From the NCBI GenBank assembly GCA_026169575.1, contig JAPFCT010000380.1:1-44267 (forward strand): DNA of 44,267 nucleotides, written 5' to 3'. Numbering within the stretch: position 1 is the stretch's first letter; the number at the start of each line of letters is the position of its first letter. Shown here piece by piece: positions 32,113 to 42,049 of this stretch. The translations under genes were made by a program, and so were the position numbers. The DNA comes from Faecalimonas sp. (lineage in GTDB: Bacteria > Bacillota_A > Clostridia > Lachnospirales > Lachnospiraceae). The notes under the pieces were generated by a model that saw only the letters and a list, made by a program, of their open reading frames with translations, was not told where the DNA came from and did not search any database.

Positions 32113-32122
32113 AAGAAAGTTG

Positions 32123-35631: not shown

Positions 35632-36555
35632 ATGGCAGAAACAGAAATTCTATTAGAGTCTGGAACAAATGAGATTGAGATCATGCAGTTTACCATTTTT
35701 GGGGAACTATATGGAATCAATGTGGCGAAAGTGCGGGAAATCATGATGGCAGATAAAGTGAAGCCAGTACCGCATTCCCACGAAGCAGTAGAGGGAATTT
35801 TCAAGCCGAGGGAAATTCTTTTGACAGTGATTGATCTTCCAAAGTATCTTACGGGAGAGAATCAGACAAAAAATCCAAGAGATTTATTTATTATTACAAA
35901 TTTTAATAAGATGCATATTGCATTCCGTGTCCATTCTGTTGTAGGGATCAGCAGGATTTCATGGGAGGACATTCAGAAGCCGGACAATACGATCAGCCAT
36001 GGAGAAGAAGGCGTTGCAACAGGAATCGCACAGTGTGGATCCAAGCTTGTCACGATTCTTGACTTTGAAAAGATCGTAGCGGAGATTGCGCCGGAGACAA
36101 CAATCCAGATGGAAGAGATCGACCGTCTTGGAGAGCGTCAGATCAGAGAATCCCACATTCTTCTGGCAGAGGATTCTATTTTGTTATCCAGAATGATCGA
36201 GGATTCTCTTTCAAGGGCAGGATATATTAATATTACAAGCTTTAATAATGGAAAAGAGGCATGGGATTACCTCTGCTCTATCCGCAATGACTCGGATTTT
36301 GACAGTAAGGCGGGCTTGCTGATCACGGATATCGAGATGCCGGAGATGGATGGTCACAGACTGACAAAGCTCGTGAAAGAAGATGAGGTGATGAAGAAGG
36401 TTCCGGTAATTATTTTCTCTTCTCTGATCAATCAGGAGATGCGCATCAAAGGGAAACAGCTTGGAGCAGATGAACAGATGTCAAAGCCGGAGATCGGACA
36501 TCTGGTGGAAGTTATGGACGAGTTGTTAGCACGTAAGGAGGCACAGCATGGATAA
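35632..36555 (+). CDS. cheV: chemotaxis coupling protein CheV
   Basis: Couples receptors to CheA and adapts through its own phosphorylation. 307 aa. CheW-like domain at about 15-160 (MQFTIFGELYGINVAKVREIM, GIFKPREILLTVIDLPKYL). Receiver domain at about 178-300: LLAEDS acidic pocket, phosphoacceptor Asp in LITDIEMPEMDGHRL, VPVIIFSSL, and K in MSKPEIG. AAAGGAGAGAG precedes ATG 35632. It overlaps the EAL-HDOD gene by 8 bases. Confidence 0.95.
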   Translation: MAETEILLESGTNEIEIMQFTIFGELYGINVAKVREIMMADKVKPVPHSHEAVEGIFKPREILLTVIDLPKYLTGENQTKNPRDLFIITNFNKMHIAFRVHSVVGISRISWEDIQKPDNTISHGEEGVATGIAQCGSKLVTILDFEKIVAEIAPETTIQMEEIDRLGERQIRESHILLAEDSILLSRMIEDSLSRAGYINITSFNNGKEAWDYLCSIRNDSDFDSKAGLLITDIEMPEMDGHRLTKLVKEDEVMKKVPVIIFSSLINQEMRIKGKQLGADEQMSKPEIGHLVEVMDELLARKEAQHG

Positions 36556-37786
36556 ATGTGTAGTGAGACAGACAATTAAGAATCAGAAGACAGATGAAAT
36601 CGTAGGATATGAGCTGATGGTGCAGGGAGATGAAGAGACTCTGTATAATTCCAGCTCAGACAGTGTGGCGGCAAATGCGATGATTGCTTTTCTTACAGAG
36701 AATTCTGGCAGAATTTTCAGTGAGAAGCCGACATTTATGACATTTACCCCGGCGCTTTTATTCAGAAATACTCCGAAGATCTTTGATAAAGATAAGATTG
36801 TCATTCAGATTGAAGACAATATTGTCATTCATCCGCTGTCTTCTGTCCTGATCAGCAAATATCGCGAGGAAGGGTATCGCTTTGCGATCAATGATTTCCA
36901 GTTTACACCGAAGTATTTCAGCATGCTGGAATATGTAGATTATATCAAAGTAAATATTTCCGGGAAGATGGATGAGACACATAAACGCTCTCTGAATAAT
37001 ATTGTAGAAATGTCACATGGTTTTCAGAAAGAATTTATTGCGACAGGAGTCAATACAAAGGAAGCATATGAATATGCAAAAGAGCTGAATGCGGATTATG
37101 TGGAAGGAAATTATATTTCAGATGCGATGCTGACAAAAGCAAACAAGATGGAATACCTTCAGGGGAATCTTTATCAGCTGATCATGGAAATCACGAAGGA
37201 AGAGCCGGATATCGAACTGCTGGAGCAGATTATCAGCCGGGATGCTTCGCTGACATATGCTTTGTTAAAAATGGCAAATTCCGCGTACTTTGCAGTGCGT
37301 CACCAGACATCGTCCATTCAGCAGGCGATTGTGCGCGTCGGTATTGACCAGTTAAAGAAATGGGTGTATTTATTGAGTTTCAAAGAAGAGGAAAACACAT
37401 CGGAAGAACTTTTAAAAGCTTCCTTTATGCGGGCAAGTTTTGCATCTGCACTTGTGAAAAAGATGGATCATTTTCCGATCAACAGTTCTGATGCATACCT
37501 GATGGGAATGTTCTCGACACTGGACTACATGATTGACGCTCCGATGGAAGAGATTTTAAATGGAATCCCGGTTGTGGAGGAAGTGAAAGCTGCGCTGATC
37601 TCAAAAGAAGGCAAAGCAGGACGTTTGTATGAACTGATTCTCTGCTATGAAAAAGCCGAATGGGGAGAAATCAAGTATATTGCAGAAGAATTAGAACTTC
37701 CGACGCATGTCATGGCACAGATTTACATGGAATGTGTAGACGAGGTAAATGAAATCTGGAACAGTGTTGTCGGAGAAATAAAATAG
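36548..37786 (+). CDS. EAL-HDOD signalling protein, degenerate EAL
   Basis: 412 aa of the YuxH/CdgJ type. The N-terminal ~200 residues have the EAL fold (VVRQTIKNQKTDEIVGYELMV, YIKVNIS, FIATGVNTKEAYEYAKELNADYVEGNYI) but the EAL motif itself is ELM and several metal-binding residues are missing, so c-di-GMP hydrolysis is unlikely. The C-terminal HDOD domain covers about 205-400 (EQIISRDASLTYALLKMANSAYFA, SSIQQAIVRVGIDQLKKWVYLLSF). In Vibrio cholerae a similar protein, CdgJ, controls motility. ATG 36548 overlaps cheV; a terminator follows. Confidence 0.9.
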   Translation: MDKCVVRQTIKNQKTDEIVGYELMVQGDEETLYNSSSDSVAANAMIAFLTENSGRIFSEKPTFMTFTPALLFRNTPKIFDKDKIVIQIEDNIVIHPLSSVLISKYREEGYRFAINDFQFTPKYFSMLEYVDYIKVNISGKMDETHKRSLNNIVEMSHGFQKEFIATGVNTKEAYEYAKELNADYVEGNYISDAMLTKANKMEYLQGNLYQLIMEITKEEPDIELLEQIISRDASLTYALLKMANSAYFAVRHQTSSIQQAIVRVGIDQLKKWVYLLSFKEEENTSEELLKASFMRASFASALVKKMDHFPINSSDAYLMGMFSTLDYMIDAPMEEILNGIPVVEEVKAALISKEGKAGRLYELILCYEKAEWGEIKYIAEELELPTHVMAQIYMECVDEVNEIWNSVVGEIK

Positions 37787-37922: not shown

Positions 37923-38768
37923 TTAATGTCTTGGATTTTCCTTGATCGTGATACATGCCTTTGTCGCTTCCACAGTAATATCAGCAATGAATTTATTTGT
38001 ATAAAAGCTGATAAGCGGATCGACAGCGGCAGGCGTTGTAACAATATATTTTGGAGGAAGTCCGTTGAGCGTAAGGGCGATGGTATCAGCCACGCAGCGT
38101 GGGCAGGTACAGACGTCAAACTGGCGCATATAGTAGATGATCTTATCCCGGACGATGCGTTCCATCAGGTTCAGCGCGATGAATTCCGGTTCTTCCGGTA
38201 TCTCCGGTTCAGAAACTGTGCCAGGTTCTGCGGCAGCTGCCGGTTTCGGAGCCGGCTGAGGTTCTGAGGCAGCTACAGTATCTGAAGGTTCGGCCGCTGC
38301 TAAAATGACTGCAGTATCTGAAGGTTCAGCAGGTTCCAAAACAACCGCAGGGTCCGAAGTCTCGTCCGGTTCTGAAACGACCGTGGTGTCTGAAGCCTTG
38401 TCCGGTTCTGAAACGACCGTGGTGTCTGAAGTTTCATCCGGTTCCTGGGCAACTGTGGTAACAGAAGGTTCCGGAATACTGGTATCTTCTGTTACAGAAG
38501 CCTCTGGCGTAGTGTGAGAGTCTGATGTCTGTTCTGGCTCTGATCCAAATTCTTCCCTGAGCTTGTCTGCAATCAGTTCCGCAACCGGATCCGTTTCAGT
38601 GTGATCGATCACGGAAACAGTCTGTCCGGCAGGGGCAGAAGCGGCTTCCGGCTCAGAGGATGACGGAACTTCCGGAACAGAAGCAGTTTCATCAGAAGGT
38701 GTTTTCTGAGAATCATGACCTGCAAGCAGGTTCAGGACATGTGCGGTTTTATTACTTTTTCTTGCCAT
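37923..38768 (-). CDS. ComFB-domain protein with basic N-terminal peptide and repeat linker
   Basis: 281 aa. Residues 1-17 (MARKSNKTAHVLNLLAG) are basic and well formed, like peptides that activate ParA-type ATPases. A disordered linker (about 20-195), rich in Ser, Glu, Pro and Thr, contains five 12-residue repeats (SEPDETSDTTVV type). The last ~86 residues are a ComFB domain: NLMERIVRDKIIYYMRQFDV, CTCPRCVADTIALTLNGLPP, KYIV, ending KENPRH. ComFB domains have been reported as cyclic dinucleotide receptors; that this one binds such a ligand is inference. ATG 38768 has AGGAGG before it, inside the end of the ParA gene; the two genes are 2 bases apart and surely co-transcribed. Confidence 0.85.
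   Translation of the reverse strand: MARKSNKTAHVLNLLAGHDSQKTPSDETASVPEVPSSSEPEAASAPAGQTVSVIDHTETDPVAELIADKLREEFGSEPEQTSDSHTTPEASVTEDTSIPEPSVTTVAQEPDETSDTTVVSEPDKASDTTVVSEPDETSDPAVVLEPAEPSDTAVILAAAEPSDTVAASEPQPAPKPAAAAEPGTVSEPEIPEEPEFIALNLMERIVRDKIIYYMRQFDVCTCPRCVADTIALTLNGLPPKYIVTTPAAVDPLISFYTNKFIADITVEATKACITIKENPRH
38268..38447 (-). repeat. 36-bp tandem repeat array (5 units) in the ComFB gene
   Basis: Five in-frame 36-base units on the minus strand encode QEPDETSDTTVV, SEPDKASDTTVV, SEPDETSDPAVV, LEPAEPSDTAVI and LAAAEPSDTVAA. Two neighbouring copies are identical over 32 bases (38364-38395 and 38400-38431), so recent expansion is likely and the copy number may vary between strains without breaking the frame. 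Confidence 0.9.
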
Positions 38769-38770
38769 CG

Positions 38771-39553
38771 TTATACCTCCTGTCTGCAAGAAGAAATCAT
38801 ATCTACAACTTCTTTTACGAAAGATTTATAATCCTGGGCAGGATTAGAACGCGGGGAATGATCAAAAATACTGAGTCCGTGCGCAGGCGCTTCTGCAACG
38901 GCAACCCCGTTCCGGATCTGTGTCTGGAATACTTTTGTACCAATCTGTGCGGCAATGTTTTCTGTCATTTCTTTGACTTCCTGTGCCAGAAGTGTACGTT
39001 TGTTGAAACGGGTAAGGAGCAGACCTAGTACATGGAGACGTGGGTTTACGCTCTGATATACGGAGTCGATCGTTTCCTTCAGCTGTGAAACGCCAAGAAG
39101 ACTGAGAATTTCAGGCGCCATAGGAATGATCAGGTAATCTGCCACAGCATAGGCATTGACGGTCAGAATGTTCAGTGCAGGCGGTGTGTCAATGATGATG
39201 TAATCATAATTGCCGATAACCGGTGCAAGCGCCTTCTTTAAGATCAGCTCCCGGTCTGTACCGTGAAATTCCAGTTCTGCACTGCTGAGCAGAATATTGG
39301 AAGTCAGTATATCACAGTATTCAGTTTTCTGAACTGCCTCTGTCACGGAGACGGTTCCTTTCATCACGTCATAGATTGTAGCGCCGTTTTCAATATCCAG
39401 CCCGAGGCTGAATCCAAGACTTCCCTGCGGGTCGAGATCGACAGCAAGGACTTTTTTATCATAAAAAGAGGCGAGTCCGGCAGCAAGAGAACTGGATGTA
39501 GTTGTCTTGCCTACCCCGCCTTTCTGATTTGTAAGAGCAATGATCGTTGCCAA
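38771..39553 (-). CDS. ParA/Soj-family ATPase
   Basis: A cargo-positioning ATPase that binds nucleoid DNA or membrane when ATP-bound. 260 aa. Deviant Walker A K11-GGVGKTT with both lysines; LAVDLDPQGSLGFSLG; Walker B-type DYIIIDTPP; conserved NAYAVADYLIIPM and the C-terminal GLSIFDHSPRSNPAQDY. The start is TTG 39553, with GGAGGAG ahead of it; the ATG at 39568 would swallow that site. It lacks the basic C-terminal amphipathic helix of MinD and the N-terminal activation motif of FlhG, so it is ParA/Soj-like. It is coded opposite to the flagellar genes and paired with the ComFB gene, without a parB. Confidence 0.93.
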   Translation of the reverse strand: MATIIALTNQKGGVGKTTTSSSLAAGLASFYDKKVLAVDLDPQGSLGFSLGLDIENGATIYDVMKGTVSVTEAVQKTEYCDILTSNILLSSAELEFHGTDRELILKKALAPVIGNYDYIIIDTPPALNILTVNAYAVADYLIIPMAPEILSLLGVSQLKETIDSVYQSVNPRLHVLGLLLTRFNKRTLLAQEVKEMTENIAAQIGTKVFQTQIRNGVAVAEAPAHGLSIFDHSPRSNPAQDYKSFVKEVVDMISSCRQEV

Positions 39554-39597
39554 AATAAACTCCTCCATTCGTAATTAAAACTCTGTAAGCTATTATT

Positions 39598-39620
39598 TAA
39601 AGTATACTATATGCCGATAA
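39598..39620 (+). promoter_or_regulatory. candidate sigma-28 -10 element for fliD
   Basis: GCCGATAA at 39613-39620 is a perfect sigma-28 -10 sequence. A TAAA lies at 39598-39601, but the spacing is 11 instead of about 15 bases, so the -35 is imperfect. It is 66 bases before fliD, a typical FliA-dependent late gene. Confidence 0.4.
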
Positions 39621-39685: not shown

Positions 39686-42049
39686 ATGGCAAATATAGGC
39701 GGATTAAGCGGAACGACAAGTAACAGCTTAAATGGAATCAGAGGTTACGGCGGACTTGCCAGCGGACTTGACAGAGACTCTCTGATCGAGAGTATGACAT
39801 ATGGAACTACAAGTAAGATCGACAAACAGAAGATCAAAAAGACACAACTTCAGTGGCAGCAGAACGCGATTCGCAATATTACAGATAAGATGATTGCATT
39901 TGCAGACAAGTACACGGCGACATATACATCATCTACGAACCTGTTCAGTTCTGCATTCTGGGGAAGAGCAGATATCACAGCGCTTGGCGTGAATAATAAG
40001 TACATCAGTGTATCAGGGACAGCGAATTCTTCCTCTTCTGTCTCAATTGCGGGAATCAAGCAGCTGGCGGAGAAGGCAAAATGGTCTTCCAAAAATTCTG
40101 TTTCAGATAAAACATTGGAAACTGGTACGATTGACACGAGTGCAGAGCAGAAACTGGATACACTTCAGGGGAAAACGCTGACTTTTGAATATGGAAATAA
40201 GGATTATACGATCACTTTATCTGGAAAAGATGAGAATGGACAGCCGTATAAATTCAGCACTGTGGAGGATGTGAAAAATTCCATTAACGCGATTTTAAAG
40301 GCAGAGTCAAAAGACGGAGGAATGCCGGAAGGTGCAGTAGTTGCAGAGGTAAAAGACGGAAAACTTGTCTTTAAGACAAACGAGACCAGTGGAAATAACA
40401 TCAAGTTAAAAGATGGAACGGCCCTTGAGACTTTAGGCTTCAAGGAGGCAGGAAAAGATTTTGAGGCAAAGGAGATCACACAGCAGGGAATCAGTTCGGA
40501 CAAGGCTTTGACAGAGAATGAACTGATTCAGAAAGTATCTTTTGTAGATAAGATTGCAGGAAAAGAACTGACATTCAGCTACAATGGAGTTTCCAAGACA
40601 TTTACACTGCCGGATAAGGAGACATTATCTAAGGCAAAAGATGTAATGGCAGAAGTAAAAAATTCACTTCAGAAACAGTTTGATGATGCTTTTGGAAGCG
40701 GAAGAGTTGAAGTGAAATGGGAAAATAACAAACTGGAATTTAAGACGACAAAGCCTGGCGGTGGAGAAGATCAGAGTTCCACACTGACACTTGTCAATGG
40801 AAGTGCAGAATTAATCGGGGAGGGCGGCGCGCTGAATATCCGTGCGGGAGAGTCCAACCGTCTGAATCTGAATGCAAAATTAGGGGAAGCAGGATTCCAG
40901 AATGGAGTAACCATCGGCGATACCCCGGTCAAAGTGAAAATCAATGGCACAGAGATTGAGATTACAAAGGATGATACTGTCTACTCCCTGATGGAGAAGA
41001 TTAATTCCCAGACAGATGTCACAGTAAGCTATCAGGAAGCGGCAGACAAGTTTACGATCACTGCCAAAGCGGACGGAGCAAGCGGGAAGATCAAAATCGA
41101 GGATGCTTCCGGTACACTGGAAAAGATATTCGGACAGGGAATTCCAACCGATGACTCCTGCGTCGGAAAGGATGCGATCATCGGAGTGAAATACGGGGAT
41201 TCCGATGAAGTTGTTGAGATCATAAGAGGTTCCAACAGCTTTGAACTTGATGGAATGACCATCGGTCTGAACGGTACATTTGGATATGATGAAAAGGGAA
41301 CATATATTGAAGGAACAGAAGAGATCACATTCGACGCCAAAGTAGATACCGATAAGATTGTGGAAGCAGTAAAGACGATGGTGGATGAATACAATGAAAT
41401 CATCGAGCTTGTCAATAAGGAACTGAGTACAAGACCGGACAGAGAATACCAGCCGCTGACTTCTGAGCAGAAGAAAGAGCTGACAGAAGAAGAGATCAAG
41501 CTGTATGAGGAGAAGGCAAAGGAAGGAATTCTTTTCGGTGACAGTGATCTCCGCGCCCTGAGTTCAGAACTCCGCTTTGCAATCAATCCGGCAGACCTGG
41601 CAGAGATGGAGAAGATCGGACTGTCAGTGTCAAGCTCATATTCAGACAATGGTAAATTATCATTTGATGAGAAGAAATTTAAGGCGGCGCTGGAAGCAGA
41701 TCCGGAAAATGTGCAGGAACTGTTTACAAAGAAAAAATCAGATGGAAATGCAACCGGAACCGACGGACTTGCCACGAATCTCAAGAATACAATGAGTAAA
41801 TTTGCAAACAATGTGGGAACGATGGGGATTCTGATTGAAAAAGCGGGATCGACAAAGGCGCCGAAAAGTATTACAGATAATGCGTTATATGACCAGATGG
41901 AACAGATTGACAAGAAGATTAAAGATCTTGAAGTTCGTCTGAAAATGGAGCAGGACCGCTATATCAAGCAGTTTACAACTCTTGAGACGGTAATTGCACA
42001 GATGAACAGCCAGAGCGGCTGGTTAAGCCAGTTTGGCGGTGGCTACTAG
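39686..42049 (+). CDS. fliD: filament cap protein FliD, enlarged
   Basis: Caps the filament tip and guides flagellin folding; exported with chaperone FliT. 787 aa, far above the ~500 of Bacillus FliD. The N-terminal domain GYGGLASGLDRDSLIESMTYG is the FliD_N signature; FliD_C ends with MEQIDKKIKDLEVRLKMEQDRYIKQFTTLETVIAQMNSQSGWLSQFGG. Between them, about 165-290 and 310-435 look like two copies of one domain (KxLTFxY at the start, NxKLxFKT, then the late ETLGFKE and ELIGEGG segments), followed by flagellin-IN-like repeats. The start is ATG 39686 after AAGGAGAG; the upstream frame extension adds residues that overlap the promoter. Confidence 0.93.
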   Translation: MANIGGLSGTTSNSLNGIRGYGGLASGLDRDSLIESMTYGTTSKIDKQKIKKTQLQWQQNAIRNITDKMIAFADKYTATYTSSTNLFSSAFWGRADITALGVNNKYISVSGTANSSSSVSIAGIKQLAEKAKWSSKNSVSDKTLETGTIDTSAEQKLDTLQGKTLTFEYGNKDYTITLSGKDENGQPYKFSTVEDVKNSINAILKAESKDGGMPEGAVVAEVKDGKLVFKTNETSGNNIKLKDGTALETLGFKEAGKDFEAKEITQQGISSDKALTENELIQKVSFVDKIAGKELTFSYNGVSKTFTLPDKETLSKAKDVMAEVKNSLQKQFDDAFGSGRVEVKWENNKLEFKTTKPGGGEDQSSTLTLVNGSAELIGEGGALNIRAGESNRLNLNAKLGEAGFQNGVTIGDTPVKVKINGTEIEITKDDTVYSLMEKINSQTDVTVSYQEAADKFTITAKADGASGKIKIEDASGTLEKIFGQGIPTDDSCVGKDAIIGVKYGDSDEVVEIIRGSNSFELDGMTIGLNGTFGYDEKGTYIEGTEEITFDAKVDTDKIVEAVKTMVDEYNEIIELVNKELSTRPDREYQPLTSEQKKELTEEEIKLYEEKAKEGILFGDSDLRALSSELRFAINPADLAEMEKIGLSVSSSYSDNGKLSFDEKKFKAALEADPENVQELFTKKKSDGNATGTDGLATNLKNTMSKFANNVGTMGILIEKAGSTKAPKSITDNALYDQMEQIDKKIKDLEVRLKMEQDRYIKQFTTLETVIAQMNSQSGWLSQFGGGY

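Follow-up and report, generated by a model that had tools for sequence, protein, structure and literature searches.

The flagellar gene cluster of a Faecalimonas sp. (Lachnospiraceae) raises the question of what a ParA-type ATPase and a ComFB-domain protein do side by side among motility genes. The window, i.e. the whole stretch of 44,267 bp that was analysed, carries on its plus strand genes for FlhB, FlhA, FliA, FlgF/FlgG-type rod proteins, CheC, CheD, CheV (CheW plus receiver) and an EAL-HDOD protein (36548..37786; Pfam), whose EAL motif is degenerate by eye (YELMVQ, NDFQ). The ParA-ComFB pair follows on the minus strand, convergent with the EAL-HDOD gene and divergent from fliD (39686..42049, plus strand; FliD_C and FliD_N), which likely starts at the ATG at 39686 behind aaaggagag and is followed by FliS. 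A sequence-only reading of this DNA had described the pair as lying opposite to the flagellar genes and sharing its promoter region with fliD; the orientation and the fliD neighbour are as described.

The ATPase (38771..39553, minus strand) is 260 amino acids long, starts at a TTG after GGAGGAG, with an in-frame ATG at 39568 as a possible alternative, and matches Pfam AAA_31 with an E-value of 4e-52. By the motif definition for ParA/MinD ATPases given in the available part of PMC9178275, it is a small ParA, with a deviant Walker A box (KGGVGKT) that includes the signature lysine, a Walker B box and no N-terminal HTH. Residues K11 (signature), K16 (Walker A), D41 and D122 show at least 95% identity in 80 ParA rows, namely the window and 79 related loci. 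On the ParA side of the family, basic surface residues contact nucleoid DNA and take the place of a membrane-targeting helix. The same rows hold K or R at position 182 (100%), R186 (95%) and R214 (99%), which may be the counterparts of the DNA-binding arginines of Soj; when aligned with T. thermophilus Soj, R214 falls one place off. The C-terminal end has no obvious extension, and the closest named relatives are from Lachnospiraceae. No ParB-like neighbour of parA was detected in the window with Pfam, the flanking genes being those for the ComFB protein and FliD. The partner matches ComFB only (Pfam), and a ParABS system would pair the ATPase with a ParB that has DNA-binding and CTPase domains. 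The earlier description of a ParA-type ATPase without ParB is thus borne out.

The partner protein (281 amino acids; 37923..38768, minus strand) has an ATG start behind AGGAGG, 2 bases past the ParA stop codon TAA, exactly the spacing reported before. The ribosome-binding sites of parA and of its partner are both good. Its first 19 residues form a basic peptide, MARKSNKTAHVLNLLAGHD (38712..38768, minus strand), proposed here as a ParA-activating motif. Measured over some 18 residues, the peptide has a median charge of +3 among 68 rows of the 69-row alignment A3; the remaining row, P0118, was left out by the charge script because its motif departs from the pattern used. K7, T8, H10, V11, L12 and L14 are invariant in all 69 rows, many of which were seeded by the motif. 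A short helix is predicted at amino acids 9-15 with low confidence (pLDDT 57-59), and a joint fold prediction of ParA and ComFB is uninformative, the peptide merely prolonging the last helix of ParA in it. According to the available parts of PMC7993993 and PMC10241942, proteins that partner ParA/MinD ATPases work through an N-terminus that is short and carries positive charge, and an N-terminus of this kind, short, positively charged and disordered, is present in the ComFB protein. The peptide is followed by an acidic linker of 107-289 amino acids with a median charge of -33 (same 68 of 69 rows), part of which is encoded in the window by a 36-bp tandem repeat of 3.6 copies (38317..38444, minus strand). 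A second conserved helix lies at amino acids 61-75 (38544..38588, minus strand; pLDDT 84 for amino acids 61-70 and 66 for 71-80); L70 in it is invariant in the 69 rows of A3, and by eye a similar block is kept in L129, a relative without ParA. In the AlphaFold model the ComFB domain has block means of 95-98, and apart from the helix at 61-75 the rest is a low-confidence chain.

The ComFB domain (amino acids 197-281; 37926..38180, minus strand) matches Pfam PF10719 over amino acids 200-279 (E 1.7e-15; 57.3 bits against a curated cut-off of 25), and both the repetitive linker and the ComFB domain named in the sequence-only reading were recovered. The NCBI ComFB equivalog NF052654 scores 32 bits, below its 120-bit cut-off. 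Foldseek returned two matches at E < 1, B. subtilis ComFB (4wai; E 1.5e-4, TMt 0.71-0.74) and the complex of CdgR and c-di-GMP (8hja; E 1.4e-3); after these, the best E-value is 2.8. Zinc-ligand cysteines and dimer-interface residues are described for B. subtilis ComFB in the available part of PMC4381287, and the CxCxxC motif and most of the dimer residues recur in the ComFB domain of the pair. C220, C222, C225, H281, N200, D228 and Y241 are invariant in an alignment of 28 diverse ComFB rows; E203 and N235, putative dimer-interface positions, vary in these rows. The domain probably holds zinc through C220, C222 and C225, with H281 as the likely fourth ligand, and is probably dimeric through a putative interface of N200, E203, D228, N235 and Y241. 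Cyanobacterial ComFB binds c-di-AMP and c-di-GMP (PMC12313861, available part), and by the modelled fold the ComFB domain of the pair may be a sensor of the same nucleotides. The likeness to B. subtilis ComFB and cyanobacterial CdgR/ComFB lies in the domain fold; the difference is that here the domain is joined to a ParA-type N-terminal peptide and a linker and is encoded in a flagellar locus.

Relatives of the locus were taken as the best 80 of 105 loci from a protein-alignment scan of one-per-species genomes. This set was seeded by the exact peptides TVEATKAC or KTAHVLNL, and motif conservation within it is therefore partly a product of selection. ParA lies beside ComFB in 79 of these best 80 loci, the exception (L072) being cut by a contig end, and flagellar genes accompany the pair in 77 of the best 80. 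The search for the same pair near flagellar genes in other genomes, suggested with the sequence-only reading, thus places it within motility contexts rather than mainly outside them. The three loci without a flagellar marker are L014, on a contig of 4.6 kb, L061 (10.7 kb) and L069 (20.3 kb); the typed neighbours of the latter two are non-flagellar. Where the upstream sequence is long enough (74 loci), the gene directly divergent from the pair encodes FliD in 70; in L060 and L062, by contrast, pair and neighbours run in one direction, with the pair between FlgG and FliD. Among the 63 loci with more than 8 kb downstream, EAL-HDOD is found there in 39 and CheV, CheD or CheC in 44.

A recurrence of 79 in 80 is more than chance would give, and it bears on the view that these are common partition genes, or mobile cargo, found in the locus by accident. 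That view can point to the many NCBIfam ParA models that match the ATPase, none of them above its cut-off among the best 25 matches listed; the constant pairing, the divergent FliD and the missing ParB-like neighbour speak so clearly against it that it is considered very improbable. A plasmid or phage partition module was rejected as a separate candidate, as no phage match was obtained and the two plasmid matches covered the ComFB domain only, or 30% of the query.

The tie between the peptide and the ATPase was followed in loci from the genome surveys. The motif type K[TS]x[HR]V[LM]x[LI] occurs in 24 ComFB proteins (including two seed genomes, G001 and G012, and two rows of G493), and ParA is encoded directly upstream in all 24. 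Two long ComFB proteins without ParA (L129, L166) also lack the motif, and 60 short ComFB proteins have neither motif nor ParA, one of them (L162) being of the pair type but truncated where its contig stops. Three ComFB proteins have ParA with another N-terminus (L164, L165 and L167). In its charge and in its tracking of ParA the peptide behaves as the earlier comparison with ParA activators had it. Genome G429 (locus L247) keeps FliD, ComFB, EAL-HDOD, CheV, CheD and CheC in order, with a gap that holds no ParA. Its ComFB protein begins with MSAQNNDKITKD; the peptide is absent, and the second-helix-like block and the ComFB domain are kept. Because G356, the nearest neighbour of G429 in the FlhA tree, has both ParA and the motif, this looks like a joint loss of ATPase and peptide. 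Such a loss looks like what a ParA-docking peptide would predict, though it is one event.

The argument rests on profile surveys of genomes, and profile A2 itself contains the motif. In the order sample of 147 genomes, FlhA was found in 107, FlhF in 92 (E ≤ 1e-35; 87 of the 92 above the curated cut-off) and a long, pair-type ComFB in 13 (E ≤ 5.2e-35, the next best match being 6.4e-24). All 92 FlhF-positive genomes also have FlhA. The 13 pair-type genomes all fall among the 15 that have FlhA and lack FlhF, and the profile search of this sample found pair-type ComFB in none of the 92 FlhF-positive and none of the 40 FlhA-negative genomes (Fisher p 5.8e-15, uncorrected for kinship). In each of the 13, the ComFB gene is on the FlhA contig, 5.0 to 9.0 kb away; ParA adjoins it in 12, and FliD, CheV or CheD lies within the 3.4-3.9-kb locus in 12, L125 showing EAL-HDOD only. 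The two remaining genomes with FlhA and no FlhF are G404, where a contig edge falls inside FlhA, and G327, in which FlhA is followed by genes for a PilZ protein, CheC and CheD, and FlhF is absent. Apparent long ComFB matches in two FlhF-positive genomes were rejected: in G083, a genome of the class sample, a short ComFB is read across masked bases and continues in a different frame that by eye resembles shikimate kinase; in G339 an upstream frame is read into a short ComFB.

The class sample of 293 genomes contains 118 with FlhA, 11 of which lack FlhF; a long ComFB is present in 4 of these 11 and in 0 of the other 107 (p 4.3e-5). The other seven (G021, G054, G091, G095, G171, G240 and G267) have neither FlhF nor long ComFB and fall outside the clade of the pair; a genome can thus be without FlhF and not carry the pair. 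Among 197 genomes from the order of G012, a pair-like protein (E < 1e-25) occurs in 14, with the other N-terminus in two of them, and FlhF in 11; the overlap is zero, which is not significant (Fisher p = 1). FlhF above the cut-off was found in 0 of 12 related genomes. For FlhG, queried with the protein of G379, none of 26 genomes with pair-type ComFB gave a match at FlhG level (best E 1.6e-21); as a control, 8 of 8 FlhF-positive genomes gave E ≤ 1.2e-82, and their second, MinD-like matches lay at about the 1.6e-21 level. In the window the FlhA gene runs to 32112 and that of FliA begins at 32120, which leaves no FlhF or FlhG between them; the FlhF-positive relatives L147 and L148 have both genes behind FlhA. 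The pair and FlhF were never found together in three genome samples, nor were the pair and FlhG in the 26 genomes searched for it. This pattern stems from a single clade, and some genomes have neither system. A loss of PilZ as part of the same swap was rejected, since PilZ is present in 22 of the 26 genomes with pair-type ComFB.

A tree of FlhA was built from 71 rows: 23 with the pair, G429, 40 with FlhF (hand-chosen, 35 of the 92 in the order sample and 5 of the 107 in the class sample) and the seven class-sample rows with neither. G429 groups with the pair rows in a single clade (support 100). A branch with support 95 separates off the FlhF rows, and the seven rows with neither are on the pair side, outside the pair clade. 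The simplest reading, a tentative one drawn from this tree, is that FlhF and FlhG were already absent from the flagellar lineage and that the pair was gained once. The order of loss and gain is tentative because the tree was made by a quick method without bootstrap, was midpoint-rooted for drawing and has two of the neither-rows as long branches. With one clade and a single event, the exclusion of FlhF is stable across many species and not independently replicated. ParA distances correlate with ComFB-domain distances (Spearman 0.76) and with FlhA distances (0.68).

Taken together, the pair is held, with slightly better than even confidence, to be a ParA positioning system of the flagellar locus whose activating ComFB adaptor acts on the flagellar or chemotaxis machinery. 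An ATP-bound ParA dimer would coat the nucleoid, and the basic N-terminal peptide of the ComFB protein would touch ParA and trigger ATP hydrolysis. The long, acidic, disordered linker would serve as a tether, and the ComFB domain, probably a dimer that holds zinc and possibly aided by the second helix, would bind a flagellar or chemotaxis part as cargo, most likely the flagellum or basal body. Through the ComFB fold, c-di-GMP or c-di-AMP may switch the tether on or off. In the genomes sampled, the system occurs where FlhF and FlhG are absent. A flagellar cargo is favoured because FliD is the most constant neighbour and an FlhG-type ATPase was not found. Against a positioner stand the flagellar locus that G429 keeps without ParA there, the pairs of L061 and L069 with no flagellar marker and the three pairs with another N-terminus, as do the single clade in the FlhA tree, the seven class-sample genomes with FlhA and neither FlhF nor long ComFB, and the non-significant result in the order of G012. 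Oscillibacter valericigenes is peritrichous (PMC3558957, available part), and the pair is carried by Oscillibacter MAGs (L063, L073, L074), a comparison at genus level.

Like FlhF and FlhG, the pair is encoded in the flagellar locus, includes one ParA/MinD-family ATPase and has a proposed role in flagellar number or position. It differs in that its partner is a ComFB protein and not the SRP-type GTPase FlhF, in the lack of an FlhG-level match in the 26 pair-type genomes, and in a ParA that keeps the basic residues and has no obvious C-terminal extension. McdA-McdB and PomZ-PomX likewise join a ParA-type ATPase to a partner other than ParB that bears a basic peptide at its N-terminus (PMC7993993, available part); the cargo of those systems is the carboxysome or the division site, whereas the pair has a ComFB domain, a candidate binder of zinc and nucleotide. 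PpfA-TlpT and ParC-ParP resemble it as orphan ParA proteins in a motility context with a protein partner in place of ParB (PMC9178275, available part). If the pair acted like these, its cargo would be the chemoreceptor array, a reading we regard as unlikely. ParA-like ATPases are known to place chemoreceptor clusters (same source), CheV, CheD or CheC is common downstream (44 of 63 loci), and a CZB chemoreceptor adjoins the pair in L003; yet FliD adjoins the pair more constantly (70 of 74), L034-L038 have no CheV, CheC or CheD in the 10 kb downstream of the pair, and the ComFB-domain partner, unlike those of PpfA and ParC, contains no CheW or MCP domain (Pfam).

A narrower form of the positioning proposal is put forward tentatively and is thought somewhat unlikely: the ComFB adaptor would sense c-di-GMP or c-di-AMP through its fold and switch the flagellar tether on or off in the Clostridia clade without FlhF and FlhG. 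The placement or signalling system that the sequence-only reading had proposed is supported in part, namely in its motility link, in a peptide that tracks ParA and in a fold like that of a c-di-GMP receptor; the support stops short of placement and sensing as such.

The pair could also be a regulator that adjusts the expression of flagellar genes or the activity of the motor when a cyclic dinucleotide is sensed, without positioning anything. FleN-type ATPases act on transcription. The region between parA and fliD is relevant here, as it holds a conserved 28-bp element, TTATTTAAAGTATACTATATGCCGATAA (39593..39620, plus strand in the window). Within it, GCCGATAA resembles a sigma28 -10 box oriented to fliD, and AGTATACT in the core is palindromic. 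The 21-mer core is exact in 36 of 86 loci, and, with up to three mismatches allowed, 8 of 10 genomes contain the element exactly once (6 without a mismatch, 2 with three), against 0 for the reversed control. By eye, TTAA or TTAT precedes GCCGATAA by some 16 nt. A sigma28 box spaced as TAAA-N13-17 was rejected (0 of 72 loci toward fliD, 1 of 72 toward ParA), and the fliC of the window has no -10 box of the GCCGATAA type within 300 nt. L062, whose pair does not diverge from fliD, keeps GCCGATAA but not the remainder of the element; G429, without ParA, retains a close variant. These data fit a two-way promoter common to parA and fliD and are not proof of one. For fliD at least, the element points to late, sigma28-type expression, and such timing would be unexpected in a factor that selects where assembly takes place.

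This close link to a promoter-like element shared with fliD speaks for a regulator, as does the retention of ComFB without ParA in G429. CdgR/ComFB proteins are cyclic-dinucleotide receptors, CdgR working via the transcription factor DevH (PMC12313861, available part; PMC13075795). Nevertheless, the charged N-terminus, the long tether and the conserved basic residues of ParA fit a positioning ratchet, and neither protein has a transcription-factor domain at E ≤ 0.001 (Pfam), so that a regulator is judged improbable.

The positioning proposal would make the pair a conserved, testable candidate for flagellar placement in bacteria without FlhF and FlhG. Many Clostridia without the genes that usually place flagella have it in their flagellar clusters, so that it may be a positioner of motility machinery not described before. 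No paper on a ParA-ComFB pair was among the matches listed in a literature search that covered titles and the starts of abstracts, with most subscription papers and all bioRxiv preprints outside its scope. The carriers make up a large clostridial group, and for many of them gut metagenomes are the only source. A ParA partner with a receptor-type domain would tie second messengers directly to organelle position and, should the nucleotide-switched form hold, would put the counting, placing or sharing-out of flagella in the FlhF/FlhG-less clade under second-messenger control.

The three ComFB proteins with another N-terminus represent a second kind of ParA-ComFB pair (L164/L245, L165/L246 and L167/L244), and in two of the three the N-terminus reads MYKK[IL]MPS. 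L244 lies near fliC and cheA-like genes, L245 shows a weak fliC-like match, and L246 has no flagellar marker and a weak FlhG-like match. In several loci of the first kind, a small gene with a RelA/SpoT domain lies directly 3' of ComFB on the same strand (L024, 10975-11733; L033, 11012-11743), with further cases in L035 (10355-11083), L037 (10268-11089) and L038 (10298-11029). Genes of the PDDEXK_2 transposase family adjoin the pair in L004 (12016-12801 and 13178-14056). The chemoreceptor of L003 (10904-12550), which has a CZB zinc domain, lies between ComFB and EAL-HDOD, and ORFs of similar size (about 550 amino acids) and position are seen in other loci.
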